Virus record (IMG/VR): IMGVR_UViG_3300031772_000182
Span: 1-31,411 of that record
Length of the DNA: 31,411 bases
Strand: one strand, 5' to 3'
Source: a virus
Shown here: in pieces, positions 3,693 through 30,664 of the stretch
Layout of the letters: each line of letters opens with the position of its first letter
Position numbering within the stretch: the stretch's first letter is position 1
Position numbers and translations under genes: made by a program
The notes under the pieces: model-generated
What the model was told of the DNA's origin: nothing
Database searches by the model: none
The model's input: the letters and a program-made list of their open reading frames with translations, nothing else

Positions 3693-3946
3693 TTTATTCG
3701 GCTCCACACGTTGATGTGAAACTGATAGTTATTTGTCCAGTAATGGAAACTTTTATGATTAACTAACCCTTCACGTTGAAGTTCCCTGAGAAAAGCAATC
3801 AAGGTTCCACGGGGAATCTTTATTGGACGCGCATCACCTTTTGTTTTTCCAACCACGGCAAGTTTTTCCGTGTTAAGAATGCCTAACGGTTGCTTCTCAA
3901 ATGCTTGATGAAACAGTTTTCTACGCTTCTCATTTATCACGGTCAT
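3689..3946 (-). CDS. Probable winged-helix DNA-binding protein
   Basis: 85 aa from the ATG at 3946. That start is chosen because it overlaps the upstream stop (ATGA); an upstream in-frame start would overlap that gene by 60 bases. Residues ~24-65 (LNTEKLAVVG, then IPRGTLIAFLRELQREGLV) look like the recognition helix and wing approach of a winged-helix domain. The N-terminus is basic (NEKRRKLF). Likely a small viral transcription regulator; specific function unknown. Confidence 0.6.
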   Translation of the reverse strand: MTVINEKRRKLFHQAFEKQPLGILNTEKLAVVGKTKGDARPIKIPRGTLIAFLRELQREGLVNHKSFHYWTNNYQFHINVWSRIK

Positions 3947-4167
3947 TCTTTCAACTCCATGAGTCTTTGAATTTCTTCCAAAGGAATATGCGAACTGAAG
4001 AAACATCGTTCTTTAACATCAATTTTCTTTCCTTCTAACGCTTCCAACATTCGTTTATGTGCCAACCGTTGATGTAAATCACAACATCGTTTAGAACAAA
4101 ACTGTTGATCCCACATTCTAGTTATGAACGGTTGATGGCATTCTGGACAAACAAAACTGTAAGTCAT
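3943..4167 (-). CDS. Zinc-finger (treble-clef-like) mini protein
   Basis: 74 aa from the ATG at 4167. That start is preceded by GGGAG at good spacing and overlaps the upstream stop (ATGA). It carries FVCPECHQPF then FCSKRCCDLHQRL, giving CxxC...CxxxCC with a nearby His: the pattern of a four-ligand treble-clef or FCS-type finger. The C-terminal half is a charged helix ending LMELKE. Probably a nucleic-acid or protein-interaction finger. Confidence 0.7.
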   Translation of the reverse strand: MTYSFVCPECHQPFITRMWDQQFCSKRCCDLHQRLAHKRMLEALEGKKIDVKERCFFSSHIPLEEIQRLMELKE

Positions 4168-4307
4168 TTCAGAATCTCCCTGTATCTGTGAAAAACTTTG
4201 AAGTGAACCCACCGTTGCTTATTAATCCATGAACCGCAAAGCCAACAGAAGAATTGTCCTTGTGACGTTTGAAAAGCCTGTTTTCTAATGTAATCACGAT
4301 ATGTCAT
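4164..4307 (-). CDS. 47-aa C2H2-like zinc-finger protein
   Basis: 47 aa, with its stop overlapping the next ATG (ATGA). Ligands are C21 and C24 (FCWLCG), H35 and H40 (VHFKVFH), spaced C-x2-C-x10-H-x4-H, close to a C2H2 finger with a short loop. The N-terminus is basic (YRDYIRKQ). Likely DNA binding by analogy with archaeal virus C2H2 proteins; the target is unknown. Confidence 0.6.
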   Translation of the reverse strand: MTYRDYIRKQAFQTSQGQFFCWLCGSWINKQRWVHFKVFHRYREILK

Positions 4308-7954: not shown

Positions 7955-8054
7955 ATCCTGGCACTTCCTGATCGCAATTAGGGCAGCGGTTCATTTTTTC
8001 TTGGTTCCAGATTTTGACGGGGTTGAGGCATCGGCAACAAATCACAGTCTTCAT
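7947..8054 (-). CDS. 35-aa zinc-ribbon protein
   Basis: 35 aa with ICCRC (C6, C7, C9) and CPNC (C24, C27), a compact zinc ribbon. It starts in an ATGA overlap with the 264-aa gene upstream and overlaps the next ribbon gene by 8 bases. Two similar ribbons in a row suggest duplication or a heteromeric pair. Confidence 0.65.
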   Translation of the reverse strand: MKTVICCRCLNPVKIWNQEKMNRCPNCDQEVPGYA

Positions 8055-8845
8055 TCTTTCATCACCTTAGATGGTTTGCCTAATTCGCGTCCTGTGAACG
8101 TGCTTGAACGTTCAAGAATTATCATTGCGCCTCTTTCATACCATAATTTGTAAACGTGTAAAGGCAGAGATTCAGGAGGTTTGTTGATAAGCCACGTTGC
8201 TGCTAGTAAATGTCGAGCAAGTTTTTTATCACTGACTCGATCCACGAACTCTTGTTTGCCTTTGGTCATTGCATCATACAACGGATAACTTGGCATTCTG
8301 TCAAGAATATGCTGCATCAGATTTGGAGCAAAATTCCATGTTTTGAAATCATGTATTGCAACTCTATCTACTTCATCGACTAAACCACCGTAAACCATCT
8401 TGCTTTTGTAAGGCCATAGGACTATCATGCGACTTATGCTGAAACTTCCTTCGGAAGCATAGATTTCTTGAAATGGAACTGTGTCAGCTAATGTTGGGTT
8501 GTTCCTTAGACTGGAACTTCCCCATCTGATGTCTTTTTGCAACTTGTGAATTTCTCTTCTTTTCGAGTATGAACTTGCTGGAAGTTCAACTCCTTCATCC
8601 AAATTCTCAGTGTAAATACCTTGAATGAACGCAACATTCATCATACCAAGATTAATTCGTTCATCCATCAACATGTCGGACGATGTTGGAATAGCAATGT
8701 GAATTATTTGTTTCTTTTCTGCTTGCTTTACTTCTGTAGCCTTCGGAGAAAGTGTTTTACTCTCGGCTATCTCCTTAGGTTTCTTTGAGTATTCAGCAAC
8801 AATCCTTCGCCAACCGACAAGTCGTTTATCTGCGCTAGAAGCCAT
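8051..8845 (-). CDS. Unknown 264-aa early protein
   Basis: 264 aa from the ATG at 8845, which has AAGGAG 8 bases upstream; the GTG at 8851 is too close to that site. The N-terminus is basic and Lys/Glu-rich (~1-45). An alpha/beta core follows (IIHIAIPTSSDMLMDERINLGMM, then FSISRMIVLWPYKSKMVYGG), then a helical C-terminus (LARHLLAATWLINKPPESLPLHVYKLWYERG). It overlaps the ParB-like stop by 11 bases. Being next to a ParB-like gene it could act in replication or partition, but no motif proves this. Confidence 0.7.
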   Translation of the reverse strand: MASSADKRLVGWRRIVAEYSKKPKEIAESKTLSPKATEVKQAEKKQIIHIAIPTSSDMLMDERINLGMMNVAFIQGIYTENLDEGVELPASSYSKRREIHKLQKDIRWGSSSLRNNPTLADTVPFQEIYASEGSFSISRMIVLWPYKSKMVYGGLVDEVDRVAIHDFKTWNFAPNLMQHILDRMPSYPLYDAMTKGKQEFVDRVSDKKLARHLLAATWLINKPPESLPLHVYKLWYERGAMIILERSSTFTGRELGKPSKVMKE

Positions 8846-9740
8846 GACCACAACTCCTTTTTATTTCACCGTTCCCGCAGACTGGGCATTTCAAGTCATT
8901 ATGGAAAAGTCGCAAGGCACTAGCAAGAAGCAACTTTCTTCTTTCTGTATCAGCTAATCGTGTCTTTTCGTGAGGACTGACCTTACTATAGAAATCTTTT
9001 ATTTGTTTGTCAAGAGGAGGTACACCCAAATCCTTCATTAATTGGTCAGTGGCAAGGTCTGTTTTGACTTCTCGCGTGATAGCTTCAACGCTAAATCCTT
9101 CATCTCCTTCTTTCAGCTTTTCTAAAATCTGAGGAATGACTTGCTTCTGAACTTCTTTAGGTTCATCTACTAAGTCGGCTACAGGTCGAATGCCAAGCTT
9201 CATGCCTTCCAAGGCTGCTGTTTTAATTTCTTCAGGAAGCTTTGACTCCTCGATTTTTCTTGCTCTATCAAAAGTTGCTGGAGAAAGCCCTACTTCATGC
9301 GCTATCTCAGACTCAGATAGCTTCGTAGATCGTTCCGTGGAATGATCTACGGTAACAACTTTAGTTTGTCCGTGTTTGAGTCCGTGTAGCCTCTGTAATT
9401 CTGCATAACACTTCATCTTTGCTCTGTAAGAAACATCCTTTCGCGCCAAATTGTCCTTGATAACTCTCTCTTGTTGTTCAAGTTTGTCGTCACTCGGAAA
9501 AACCGTTATTGGCACTAGTTTGAGTCCTAACTCCAAAGCTATCCGTAAACGTTCATGGCCACAAAGAACAAGCTTATCCTTTGTAATTTCAAGAGGTGTT
9601 CTGATTCCATTAGCTTCGATGTCTTTTAGAAGAAGATTGAATGCGTCACCTTTCAATTCTGGAAAGAATTGTCTACTGTATTCATTTGCTTTCAACTGTT
9701 TAGGATCAAGAAATTTAATGCTCAAAACCTCCTCCATCAT
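8835..9740 (-). CDS. ParB-like protein with C-terminal zinc ribbon
   Basis: 301 aa. The N-terminal ParB/Srx-like domain includes IEANGIRTPLEI (~41-52) and GHERLRIA (61-68), which stands in for the family GxxRxxA box. A helix-turn-helix follows at ~142-163 (LSESEIAHEVGLSPATF). The C-terminus carries CPVCGNG...C (~285-297), a zinc-binding end not usual in ParB. It may bind centromere-like or origin sites for partition or replication control; alternatively it may regulate transcription or be a nuclease. Translation is coupled (ATGA) to the small gene upstream. No ParA partner is visible. Confidence 0.75.
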   Translation of the reverse strand: MMEEVLSIKFLDPKQLKANEYSRQFFPELKGDAFNLLLKDIEANGIRTPLEITKDKLVLCGHERLRIALELGLKLVPITVFPSDDKLEQQERVIKDNLARKDVSYRAKMKCYAELQRLHGLKHGQTKVVTVDHSTERSTKLSESEIAHEVGLSPATFDRARKIEESKLPEEIKTAALEGMKLGIRPVADLVDEPKEVQKQVIPQILEKLKEGDEGFSVEAITREVKTDLATDQLMKDLGVPPLDKQIKDFYSKVSPHEKTRLADTERRKLLLASALRLFHNDLKCPVCGNGEIKRSCGHGF

Positions 9741-9865
9741 GTTTTCATCCTCGCCCTTTTCTCATCTACTTCAATTTGGCATTGATGTTGCGCGTTCAAC
9801 ACGTCATCGCAGAGGCGGCGCAGTTCACGCGCTTTCTCTTTGAGATCAGAGTCTTTGTGAACCAA
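9737..9865 (-). CDS. 42-aa basic coiled-coil protein, TTG start
   Basis: 42 aa from TTG 9865. An in-frame stop lies just upstream, and GGGAGG sits 8 bases before the TTG. A single charged helix (LKEKARELRRLCDDVL) ends EKRARMKT. Its stop overlaps the ParB-like ATG (ATGA), so it may couple ParB translation to the regulator upstream. Confidence 0.55.
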   Translation of the reverse strand: MVHKDSDLKEKARELRRLCDDVLNAQHQCQIEVDEKRARMKT

Positions 9866-9868
9866 AAG

Positions 9869-10006
9869 CTAAGCCTCCCGAACGTTTTCTAGAATCAGGT
9901 CAGTGACAAAGCCTGCAACGGTTTTCTTGGCTTTTTTGGCTTTCTTCTCAGCGACTTGATAGGTTTCTTTTTTAATGGTGACGGTTTTCTGGCTTGGTTT
10001 CGGCAT
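9869..10006 (-). CDS. Ribbon-helix-helix regulator, first gene of the early operon
   Basis: 45 aa. It has a beta strand KTVTIKKETY (~7-16), a Lys/Ala-rich helix, then VAGFVTDLILENVREA, the layout of a CopG/Arc-type RHH protein, which dimerises and reads DNA with its strand. An AAGGAG site lies upstream. It is the promoter-proximal gene, directly downstream of TAACCGTT repeats that overlap the promoter, so autoregulation is likely. Divergent from another RHH-like gene at 10169. Confidence 0.7.
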   Translation of the reverse strand: MPKPSQKTVTIKKETYQVAEKKAKKAKKTVAGFVTDLILENVREA

Positions 10007-10022
10007 CTTCCAGCTTTCTCCT

Positions 10023-10042
10023 TAACCGTTCCTATAACCGTT
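10023..10042. promoter_or_regulatory. Operator pair, TAACCGTT direct repeats
   Basis: Two exact TAACCGTT units (10023-10030 and 10035-10042) lie 12 bp apart, between the minus-strand TATA box and the first early gene. Binding here would block early transcription. The 12-bp period suits cooperative RHH dimers. Confidence 0.65.
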
Positions 10043-10043
10043 C

Positions 10044-10055
10044 TAATATATTAAA
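10044..10055 (-). promoter_or_regulatory. Early operon TATA box
   Basis: Read on the minus strand, TTTAATATATTA lies about 40-50 bases before the ATG at 10006, placing transcription start near 10020 with a short leader that holds AAGGAG. This fits archaeal promoter geometry. Confidence 0.55.
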
Positions 10056-10075
10056 CCTATTGAGATAAAAGTGTT

Positions 10076-10095
10076 AACGGTTATCTACACGGTTC
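10076..10095. promoter_or_regulatory. Operator pair, inverted copies
   Basis: AACGGTTA (10076-10083) is the reverse complement of the first operator unit. CACGGTTC (10088-10095) is a 12-bp-shifted near copy. The pair mirrors 10023-10042 across the early TATA box. Confidence 0.55.
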
Positions 10096-10103
10096 TATAA
10101 GAC

Positions 10104-10115
10104 TCTTCTAGAAGA
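10104..10115. promoter_or_regulatory. 12-bp perfect palindrome between divergent promoters
   Basis: TCTTCTAGAAGA is a perfect palindrome located between the early TATA box and the rightward one. It may be a binding site for a second dimeric regulator; no more can be shown. Confidence 0.35.
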
Positions 10116-10127
10116 TCATACGGCAAC

Positions 10128-10148
10128 AAATAAATAATGGTAACCGTT
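10128..10148 (+). promoter_or_regulatory. Rightward TATA box with overlapping operator
   Basis: AAATAAATAA (10128-10137) lies about 32-41 bases before the ATG at 10169. It is followed at once by a fifth TAACCGTT unit (10141-10148), inside the symmetric GTAACCGTTAC. The same operator can therefore control both divergent promoters. Confidence 0.5.
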
Positions 10149-10168
10149 ACTAATCATGTTGAAAGTCC

Positions 10169-10327
10169 ATGCCGAGAGAAGGTCAAACAACCGTGACAAT
10201 TCCAACTTACAGTTGGGAAAAGGCACAAGAATACTTTAACAAACACAAGAAGGAACTGAAAAAGAAGGGCATACATTCAACGTCTAAATTGATTGATTAT
10301 TGGATTGGGAACTGCGCTCAAGGATAA
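10169..10327 (+). CDS. Second RHH-like regulator, divergent from early operon
   Basis: 52 aa. The N-terminal strand GQTTVTIPTYSWE, helix AQEYFNKHKKELKKKG and STSKLIDYWIGN match the strand-helix-helix plan of small archaeal RHH proteins. It is transcribed rightward from a promoter carrying the same TAACCGTT unit as the early operon, with a short predicted leader and no strong Shine-Dalgarno. It may be the counter-regulator of the RHH gene at 9869-10006. Confidence 0.6.
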   Translation: MPREGQTTVTIPTYSWEKAQEYFNKHKKELKKKGIHSTSKLIDYWIGNCAQG

Positions 10328-10548
10328 TTCGGCAAACAACACAGTCAAGCTTTTCATTTGGGTAGAGCTGATGAAGTTTATATGCTTGAGGTAAAGAAAG
10401 AGAAATGGTTTTTTCATTTTTGTTGTCGTTATGCTTCATTTTTCAATTTCACCTTAACTTCAGAACTAACACCTATTGACAAGCGTAGATATAACTTCTG
10501 CCATCCCATCTGGAAGGCTCTGAGGAGTCTCAGGTTAAAGTGAACAGT
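10328..10548. other. Intergenic region between RHH gene and integrase
   Basis: The first ~30 bases show nothing distinctive. T6 and T5 runs at 10409-10421 look like an archaeal oligo-T terminator for the rightward transcript. CTGAGGAGTCTCAG (10519-10532) is a short inverted repeat beside the integrase end. A TTG-initiated 61-codon reading frame spans 10358-10543 but runs through the T-tracts and is not convincing. No tRNA-like attachment site is visible. Confidence 0.5.
10409..10421 (+). terminator. Oligo-T terminator
   Basis: TTTTTT, two spacer bases and TTTTT, downstream of the rightward RHH gene, match the T-tract type of archaeal intrinsic termination. Confidence 0.4.
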
Positions 10549-11676
10549 CTATTCTTTGCCCAAATCATCCAAGAACCGTTTGAACCTTTCCGCAAGTTTC
10601 GGCTCAGAAAGCAACTCCAAAAACTTCTGCTCCTTCACGTTCCGCACTTTCAGTTCTTGATTCTCTTTCTCTAAAGCCGCAATCCTTCGTTTCACATCCT
10701 CATCCACTTTCTGTGGACGCAATGACAAATATTTTTCGTAGGTTTCCGGCATCAATTCCCGAATATCCTGTTCTAACCTTTGCAGATAGGTTTGCTTGTC
10801 TCCCGGAATCTTCTTTCCTACATAGTAACTGATTTGATAATCATTCCATCCTGCCCGCGATAATTGACCCATGACCCACTTGCGAAAGAGATGTGAATGA
10901 ACAGAACCCGTCGTGATAATGCCGCTTTTTTCTGCGAGCTGATGCAACATTTCATTCAAGCCGCCTTTGGTGCGAATCTTGAACATTGTCGCTCCCTTCC
11001 ATCGTTGCCAATACTTCTTTAAGTATTCAATAGCTAACGGATTCAGACATGCAAACCGTGGTGCTCCTGTCTTGCCGCGCTGCTCGTTGATGTAAACGAA
11101 TTGTTCGCCTGCCTGTTCTGCTTGAGCAATCAACTTCTCGATTCGAACGCGATCAAGTCCTAGAACCCCGCTGAATTCCCATCCAAGACTCGCAAAAGTG
11201 CTTACGATGGCTTTCTGCTGCGGATCACCAACATCAAACATACGCGCCACATCGCCGTTCCTGAAAATATGCGAATCAGTATCCATTTCATTCTGCAAAC
11301 GTTGACCACGGCGCAACTTGAAGGTTTCATGTCGATGGTAATAAGTGAAACTGGCTAGGGCTCGCAACGCGGTTAAAACCGTGTTGACAGATAAAGCCTT
11401 CTCAGCATCGGGTAACGGATTGTTTACTGCATAGTTTTGGAAGTCAAGCGCAAGTTTCTCCCAACAAGCCTTCTTTTCATTCCAACTAGGCAAGCGTAAC
11501 CATTCTGAGAGGGGGTTCTTGTACCATCGTTTGAAGTTTGCAAGTCCAAAAAAGTAGGCGTTGCGACTCTGCCATCTTGCATAACTGTTTATCCACTTGT
11601 CAATGAGAAGCCGATCTGCTTCAGGAAACTTGTAGCGCGGTTTATAAATTCTTGGCAAAAGCCTCCCCAAAATCAT
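10549..11676 (-). CDS. int: Tyrosine recombinase / integrase, archaeal type
   Basis: 375 aa. The catalytic half shows K202 (RGKTGAPRF), H262-x-x-R265 (SHLFRKW), a late GKKIP box and the nucleophile Y297 (TYLQRL). At the usual first-arginine position (G-x-R-x-S-E-x-L-x-L) the sequence reads GWEFSGVLGL, with Glu at 167. A helical SAM-like N-terminal domain (~20-130) and a C-terminal coiled coil (~325-350, RRIAALEKENQEL) match archaeal integrases. It would recombine the circular genome into the host chromosome. The start overlaps the upstream Cys-rich gene by 35 bases. Confidence 0.85.
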   Translation of the reverse strand: MILGRLLPRIYKPRYKFPEADRLLIDKWINSYARWQSRNAYFFGLANFKRWYKNPLSEWLRLPSWNEKKACWEKLALDFQNYAVNNPLPDAEKALSVNTVLTALRALASFTYYHRHETFKLRRGQRLQNEMDTDSHIFRNGDVARMFDVGDPQQKAIVSTFASLGWEFSGVLGLDRVRIEKLIAQAEQAGEQFVYINEQRGKTGAPRFACLNPLAIEYLKKYWQRWKGATMFKIRTKGGLNEMLHQLAEKSGIITTGSVHSHLFRKWVMGQLSRAGWNDYQISYYVGKKIPGDKQTYLQRLEQDIRELMPETYEKYLSLRPQKVDEDVKRRIAALEKENQELKVRNVKEQKFLELLSEPKLAERFKRFLDDLGKE

Positions 11677-15561: not shown

Positions 15562-15972
15562 ATGTCCCTTGCTGAATTATCACAAATCTGGAAACCACAA
15601 AAACATAGTCAATGGATACGCAAACAAATAAAGAAAGATCAGTTAGCAAAAGGCATGATACTTTATCCAACGCAAGGCGAAGCAAAAGCATGGACCATAC
15701 TTCAAGAAATTAACAGAATAACCCCTTACTATTTCAAACGGCAAAGAATAGTATATGGGTATATAATAGACTTCTATTGCCACCCGCTACGTTTAGGCAT
15801 AGAAATAGACGGATCCATCCACCAGAACCAGCGACTCTATGACCAATATAGAGAAGACAACCTCAAAAGAGAAGGTATAAAACTTCTACACTTCACAAAT
15901 TGGCAAGTCTTCAACCAACCTGAGATAGTTAAAAAACAAATAGTAGAAATCATGCTAAAAGGTGAAACATGA
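15562..15972 (+). CDS. DUF559-family PD-(D/E)XK endonuclease
   Basis: 136 aa. Catalytic pattern: E40 (GEAKAW), D70 (IIDFY) and E81-x-D83 (EIDGSIH), followed by DNLKREGIKLLHFTNWQVF, the conserved end of DUF559/VSR-like nucleases. It would nick or cut DNA. It is placed next to the terminase genes, where phages often carry HNH nucleases for packaging or homing. Whether it aids packaging, acts as a selfish nuclease or degrades competitors is not visible. Confidence 0.8.
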   Translation: MSLAELSQIWKPQKHSQWIRKQIKKDQLAKGMILYPTQGEAKAWTILQEINRITPYYFKRQRIVYGYIIDFYCHPLRLGIEIDGSIHQNQRLYDQYREDNLKREGIKLLHFTNWQVFNQPEIVKKQIVEIMLKGET

Positions 15973-29860: not shown

Positions 29861-30664
29861 ATGGGAAGCACAAACCTCACTCGCAGAGCCTTAAGCCTCG
29901 GCGCAAGAGACACAGTTACAGGATGGTGCAAAAAAGTTTGGACCGACACCACCATTCAAGGCTTAGTCTTCGATAAGTCTAGTCAACTGCAAGCATTACG
30001 TGCAGGCACTATGGTTCGGACTGATGGTTTGCTTCTCACAGAAGACGCGGTTGTGGAAGGCGATGAAATCAAGACTGCAGCAAACCGGTACTATGATGTC
30101 AAAGCGGTCCGTCCAATGTTGAATGCTGACAGTTTTGACCATTATGAATGTGATTTACATTTTAATCCTTCACATTTTGACGTTGATTACAGCACGTACG
30201 CGGGTACATGGCTTCGTGATGATGCAAGATACCGCACGAAAGTTTATATTGAAACTTGGTGGACAGCCGTAAATGTGGAAGACGATGCAGGAGCCGCCTT
30301 AACCGTTCAATGCATGTATGGCAACGTTCCCTATCCTTTGACATTAGAGCTCTACAATGGCAGCACCATTGACGTACTGATTCTTCTAAGCAAAGCCAAA
30401 ACCCTACCGTTAACGGGACATGATCATTCCACATTTGGGTATAAAGAGCAAGTGCCCATAACCATTGCAGCAATCAACAAGACAGGCATAACTGCGGACA
30501 AAGCTGTGACTCAATGTGAAACTGAACTGCGCCGGATTCTGGAAACTTATCCAGTGGGCAGTGTACGCACGTTAGATCAGACAAGGGAAACCACTGAAAT
30601 CTTAGGCAGCAACACCTTGTATCAAATTGAGTATTTATTGAATTATCAGAGAGACAAAACATGA
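29861..30664 (+). CDS. Tail terminator/completion-like protein
   Basis: 267 aa. The C-terminal ~75 residues (PITIAAINKTGITADKAVTQ, then CETELRRILETYP, then YQIEYLLNYQRDK) look like the strand-helix-strand domain of tail terminator proteins. The N-terminal ~190 residues form another, beta-rich domain. It overlaps the next ATG by 4 bases. The tail role is probable; the exact function is inferred. Confidence 0.55.
   Translation: MGSTNLTRRALSLGARDTVTGWCKKVWTDTTIQGLVFDKSSQLQALRAGTMVRTDGLLLTEDAVVEGDEIKTAANRYYDVKAVRPMLNADSFDHYECDLHFNPSHFDVDYSTYAGTWLRDDARYRTKVYIETWWTAVNVEDDAGAALTVQCMYGNVPYPLTLELYNGSTIDVLILLSKAKTLPLTGHDHSTFGYKEQVPITIAAINKTGITADKAVTQCETELRRILETYPVGSVRTLDQTRETTEILGSNTLYQIEYLLNYQRDKT

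Follow-up and report, generated by a model that had tools for sequence, protein, structure and literature searches.

In this viral genome, the region between the two divergent ribbon-helix-helix (RHH) genes, here named RHH1 and RHH2, probably serves a temperate head-tailed virus of Bathyarchaeia as a control switch with two repressors, in which both proteins would compete for shared operators. The DNA analysed (the window) is the IMG/VR record IMGVR_UViG_3300031772_000182, with a length of 31,411 bases. It encodes a terminase, a portal protein, a tyrosine recombinase and many small genes, together with a possible head protein (weak match), while no tRNA gene was found in it. Because relatives of the terminase, at 74% and 45% identity, come from two Bathyarchaeota MAGs, the host most likely belongs to the Bathyarchaeia, which are uncultured archaea. 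The dual RHH design looks like a general, undescribed control switch, since it recurs at 17 other places, often beside mobile-DNA genes. The pattern in the RHH region is real, conserved and more general than the preliminary description of this DNA could see, and from it we infer the function. Elsewhere in the window, a DUF559 (restriction-endonuclease-like) gene is located just ahead of the packaging genes (15562-15972), possibly encoding a homing or packaging nuclease.

As had been proposed previously, two small divergent RHH-like genes share a gap of 162 bp (10007-10168); both open reading frames are present and their products fit RHH profiles. In the Pfam search, matches to RHH1 and RHH2 were sub-threshold or absent, the weak phrog_29281 and Pfam NikA-like matches of RHH1 both falling below the cut-off. 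Comparison of profiles with hhalign gave a probability of 84% between the RHH1 and RHH2 families, and of 87% for RHH1 and 70% for RHH2 against a set of Bathyarchaeia RHH proteins. Moreover, Pfam RHH_1 is passed by a paired relative (L078), partner of a protein in that set, and the RHH2 relative in locus L043 aligns over its full length with proteins of the set. The AF2 model of RHH2, with a mean pLDDT of 64, displays an extended N-terminus and helices at 13-33 and 38-50, and structure comparison of this model with the PDB produced no match. The model of RHH1, obtained from a two-row alignment, consisted of one long helix and was uninformative. There is thus little doubt in our assessment that RHH1 and RHH2 are both RHH proteins. 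The outward triads of their predicted DNA-reading strands are identical in the window (Q-T-T), while the remaining core is only 11% identical. Relatives of RHH2 are present in Bathyarchaeia genomes.

The candidate operators within the shared gap are listed in Table 1. Exact copies of TAACCGTT start at 10023(+), 10035(+), 10076(-) and 10141(+), accompanied by one degenerate copy. Four of the five exact copies in the entire 31.4 kb are located inside the gap, the remaining one, at 30300, lying within a gene. Four or more copies of any 8-mer arose in only 6 of 5000 dinucleotide shuffles of the 162-bp region, and none of the contig's other non-overlapping 162-bp stretches contained four copies of an 8-mer. 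The two operator pairs with a period of 12 bp, previously described as mirrored around the early TATA box, are borne out: together, the pairs at 10024-10042 and 10076-10094 make up an inverted repeat of 19 nt with 79% complementarity, which flanks the leftward TATA candidate, one copy being degenerate. A fifth copy was said to overlap the rightward TATA box; in fact site 5 begins 3 bp after that candidate. Since sites 2 and 5 are each placed 3 bp past their TATA candidate, the same geometry appears in mirror image at the two promoters. Judged by archaeal promoter rules, such geometry fits blocked polymerase loading, where transcription starts in 10007-10168 are placed from TATA position only. 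Tandem half-sites approximately one helical turn apart in the regulator's own promoter, a trait of RHH regulators, are found as 12-bp pairs in the window and as 11-bp arrays in its relatives.

Beyond the gap, AACCGTT occurs 21 times genome-wide versus 4.3 expected, with the excess mostly in coding sequence; this excess does not mark further operators. It is among the most over-represented 7-mers in the window, L002, L004 and L005, and in the window lies mostly in coding DNA. Operator copies at several early promoters, as in F55 of SSV1, were not found, the cluster at 10023-10149 being the sole clear non-coding one in the window. Extra operators considered at 4064-4127 were rejected, as they are inside a small zinc-finger-like ORF (3943-4212).

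Table 1. Features of the RHH region and its flanking genes in the window.
Feature	Position	Strand	Remarks
ParB-like gene	8835..9740	-	next in leftward operon; PHROG ParB-like E 6e-18; not adjoining the cassette in L002
42-aa ORF, unlisted	9737..9865	-	TTG start behind GGGAGG ribosome-binding sequence at the RHH1 end; stop overlaps start of ParB-like gene
RHH1 (short RHH)	9869..10006	-	ORF, 45 aa; heads leftward early operon; predicted strand QKTVTI
Operator site 1 (candidate), TAACCGTT	10023..10030	+	near the inferred leftward transcription start; same in L002
Operator site 2 (candidate), TAACCGTT	10035..10042	+	12 bp from site 1; 3 bp downstream of leftward TATA; same in L002
Leftward TATA-box candidate	10046..10055	-	minus strand reads TTTAATATAT; near-identical in L002; inferred from sequence
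Operator site 3 (candidate), TAACCGTTA on minus strand	10075..10083	-	same in L002
Operator site 4 (candidate), degenerate CACGGTT	10088..10094	-	12 bp from site 3; CACAGTT in L002
Rightward TATA-box candidate, AAATAAATAA	10128..10137	+	identical in L002; inferred from sequence
Operator site 5 (candidate), TAACCGTTA	10141..10149	+	3 bp downstream of rightward TATA; same in L002
RHH2 (counterpart of "long" RHH)	10169..10327	+	ORF, 52 aa; predicted strand QTTVTI
Tyrosine recombinase (integrase)	10549..11676	-	convergent with RHH2; weak Pfam Phage_integrase and phrog_216 matches

Only one close relative of the window was present in the collections searched, namely L002 (IMGVR_UViG_3300032053_000275). 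Within it the block 9770-11657 is kept at 85% DNA identity, with protein identities of 96% for RHH1, 98% for RHH2 and 87% for the integrase. Absence of the repeat units from related genomes had been set beforehand as a result that would refute the proposed operators; instead, sites 1, 2, 3 and 5 are unchanged in L002, site 4 differs by one base, and distant divergent RHH pairs possess repeat arrays of their own. The 42-aa ORF is also conserved in L002, there with an AGGAGG ribosome-binding sequence. The far side of RHH1 is different, the ParB-like gene and its neighbour (8051-9740 of the window) being replaced by other genes. As L002 retains the RHH genes, the sites and the integrase while the genes beyond RHH1 differ, the RHH1-RHH2-integrase cassette is, by this comparison, inherited as a unit. 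The ParB-like gene was rejected as a component of the switch, since L002 has none at that place. In the gap between RHH2 and the convergent integrase (10328-10548), a conserved inverted repeat, TTCACCTTAAC / GTTAAAGTGAA, is a candidate attachment site or terminator. Relatives of the integrase are found in Bathyarchaeia genomes at 31-39% identity.

When 256 Bathyarchaeia genomes were searched with RHH2, the same order of a short RHH gene, an RHH2-like gene and a convergent integrase came up at two loci, L042 and L043, whose shared regions contain TAACACC/TAACWGTT units at an 11-bp period. The RHH2 of L043 is extended by a tail at its C-terminus, and following up this tail yielded a larger set of "long" RHH proteins that have a divergent "short" partner. 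In total, 17 further divergent short/long pairs were obtained in Bathyarchaeia genomes, so that 18 loci including the window could be compared, all chosen by their genes and not by repeats. Tyrosine recombinases are located within approximately 5 kb of the pair in L067, L068, L131, L133, L134, L135, L140 and L141, and in a Bathyarchaeia provirus fragment (L146:158-8500) the dual RHH pair is directly before the terminase and portal genes. Dual RHH modules therefore appear often on integrated elements and proviruses; at other loci the neighbours are chromosomal-looking or of no known type. The integrases near RHH pairs are diverse, and BLASTP of the window integrase against those of L042, L043 and L077 gave no match. 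The integrase was rejected as carrier of the module because its relatives, found by profile, mostly have no RHH pair nearby. The C-terminal domain of the long RHH proteins (L078:1504-1896, L043:1222-1629 and relatives), characterized by G-x2-C-x7-C-x-H and EGW-LP motifs, is widespread in the phylum, has no convincing Pfam match and is perhaps metal-binding. In a phylum-wide search the tailed RHH protein was common, while pairs were rare in the loci fetched outside the class Bathyarchaeia, and the few pairs there displayed no clear 11-bp array. With the RHH2 of L042 as query, no match was obtained in viral contigs. Searches with the operator words alone returned chance matches: two of the three collection matches to the 20-bp operator-pair pattern (L010, L011) were unrelated viruses, and AACCGTT pairs occurred in 20 of the 256 Bathyarchaeia genomes, similar to a reversed-pattern control.

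The predicted reading strands of the paired proteins were compared in an alignment of 36 proteins, with agreement scored over 12 non-redundant divergent loci and with start codons and strand borders set by hand. At each outward strand position the two proteins agreed in 75% of cases within a locus versus 19-22% between loci. Summed outward matches within loci amounted to 27, compared with 8.8 +/- 2.8 for shuffled partners (p <= 5e-5); the excess over shuffled partners was 1.35-fold for the rest of the core and 1.65-fold for other strand positions. The combination Q-T-T, present in both window proteins, occurs in no other sampled locus; the corresponding residues in L042 are Q-K-S. Common descent of the pairs would explain part of the similarity in several loci, and hardly any in the window, L042 or L043. 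Matched outward strands are the pattern expected of two proteins reading one operator, and the predicted recognition of shared sites by RHH1 and RHH2 is well supported at the sequence level. Furthermore, the pooled 18 divergent regions contained 151 near-repeats at an 11-bp offset, where shuffles gave 24 (z 14), and there was another peak at 22 bp; leaving out the window did not alter this result. The 11-bp rate reached 53.3/kb versus 8.4/kb in 334 control intergenic regions, the highest rate among 2000 random control sets being 24.4/kb. Sixteen of the 18 loci contribute to it; the window contributes at 12 bp instead. Change of strand together with operator across loci, beyond relatedness, was not significant (partial Mantel p 0.11).

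In the mechanism proposed here, RHH1 and RHH2 would each form dimers whose two-stranded ribbon enters the major groove of the DNA, and both are predicted to read TAACCGTT because their outward strand residues (Q, T, T) are the same. With dimers on sites 1 and 2, about one helical turn apart and just past the leftward TATA box, polymerase would be kept from loading and the leftward operon would be shut; this operon comprises RHH1, the 42-aa ORF, the ParB-like gene and probably also the early genes further along. At higher occupancy RHH2 would be shut as well, through site 5, which stands at an equal distance from the rightward TATA box, and the pair 3-4 between the promoters may add cooperativity or stimulate one promoter. 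Because the two proteins are unlike outside the strand, their competition for the shared sites may be unequal in strength or effect. Two proteins with different bodies and equal targets could act as a competition switch. The likeliest scheme is that they share their binding sites and differ in how strongly they repress the two promoters. Binding, the promoter starts and competition between the two proteins, as well as lysis/lysogeny switching and which protein holds which state, are what we infer from the sequence. It is speculative that RHH2 maintains the integrated state and that RHH1 is an early Cro-like protein. We lean to RHH2 for maintenance because it adjoins the integrase and its relatives often carry a cysteine/histidine tail, which may sense a signal; the RHH2 of the window has no such tail.

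The same arrangement could also be read without a bistable switch. The two RHH proteins might merely autoregulate and tune each other's early expression, affecting timing or dampening and having no role in the choice of lysis versus integration, which we consider rather unlikely. RHH proteins commonly autoregulate, SvtR of SIRV1 repressing its own gene (PMC5569661), and in the window sites are found at the promoters of both RHH genes and in no other non-coding cluster. However, a lone autoregulator needs no second protein that shares its reading strand. Moreover, the module and the integrase move together as one block against a changing set of other early genes, as observed in L002, and RHH2 converges on the integrase in several elements whose integrases are unlike.

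The exchange of genes beyond RHH1 also bears on a partition or replication locus, in which the repeats would be centromere-like iterons for CopG/ParG-type RHH proteins and the ParB-like gene. Iteron binding by RHH proteins, for instance omega, is established for plasmid partition, and the ParB-like gene comes after RHH1 in the window. Yet this gene is absent beside the L002 cassette, which has retained sites and RHH genes alike. In addition, a ParA was not recognised, the sites are symmetric relative to both TATA candidates, and divergent RHH pairs recur with no ParB-like neighbour noticed; a partition locus is accordingly regarded as improbable. An even fainter chance is given to a toxin-antitoxin locus, with RHH1 as an antitoxin that autoregulates with its partner and the 42-aa ORF as the toxin. 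We know of no toxin-antitoxin locus with a divergent second RHH gene of the same strand, and the 42-aa ORF is not recognised as any toxin, even though this conserved small ORF overlaps the RHH1 end and RHH antitoxins such as RelB bind tandem half-sites in their own promoter (PMC2812701).

A two-repressor switch invites comparison with known systems. The preliminary description had called it lambda-like, and the layout agrees with this in its divergent promoters, two small DNA-binding proteins and shared candidate operators. The likeness does not extend to the proteins, since CI and Cro are helix-turn-helix proteins, whereas RHH1 and RHH2 fit RHH profiles and are combined with archaeal TATA promoters; mutual repression in the window is only proposed. 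In phage P22, the arc and mnt genes are divergent and the reading strands of Arc and Mnt are near-identical. Within P22 immI these RHH repressors act on each other's expression (PMC11016777, PMC2629481), Mnt repressing arc/ant while Arc inhibits mnt and moderates ant (PMC11016777). By layout and description, immI resembles the window in having two small RHH repressors on one control region, and two divergent RHH genes sharing one such region are found in the window and the 17 other loci. It differs in belonging to a bacterial virus and in being a secondary immunity region controlling an antirepressor gene, whereas the downstream gene in the window is ParB-like. F55 of SSV1, a small archaeal virus RHH repressor with repeated sites, comprises 55 aa and recognizes an 11-nt site, several copies of which occur in early promoters and its own, and a review likens it to lambda CI (PMC9608457, PMC5569661). 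F55 is, however, a single protein of a spindle-shaped Sulfolobales virus with operators over several promoters, and no strand-matched second RHH has been described. SvtR (SIRV1) and AvtR (AFV6) are likewise small archaeal virus RHH regulators of viral promoters, in the case of SvtR also its own (PMC5569661), but are single genes of other virus groups, not divergent pairs, and have no integrase linkage. P22 immI and SSV1 F55 thus appear closer to the window than lambda, "lambda-like" being a functional analogy only, and neither is a paired, strand-matched archaeal module. No description of such a module was found in the literature searched, which extends to few subscription journals, and RHH goes unmentioned in surveys of Bathyarchaeia viruses and archaeal proviruses.

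Very little is known of how head-tailed viruses of archaea decide between integration and growth, and the reviews cited describe a single lysogeny repressor from an archaeal virus, F55 of SSV1. A compact, recurrent two-protein module with predictable operators is a directly testable system, and the 18 loci with different strands provide a natural series from which to derive which RHH strand residues read which DNA word. More tentatively, and with somewhat less than even confidence, Bathyarchaeia mobile elements and viruses may share a general switch of two RHH proteins, otherwise dissimilar in sequence, whose strands selection would keep alike for competition over a single operator array specific to the locus. 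In many cases a cysteine/histidine domain at the C-terminus, potentially a sensor of some signal, would be confined to one of the two proteins. New immunity specificities would arise through joint change of strand and operator.
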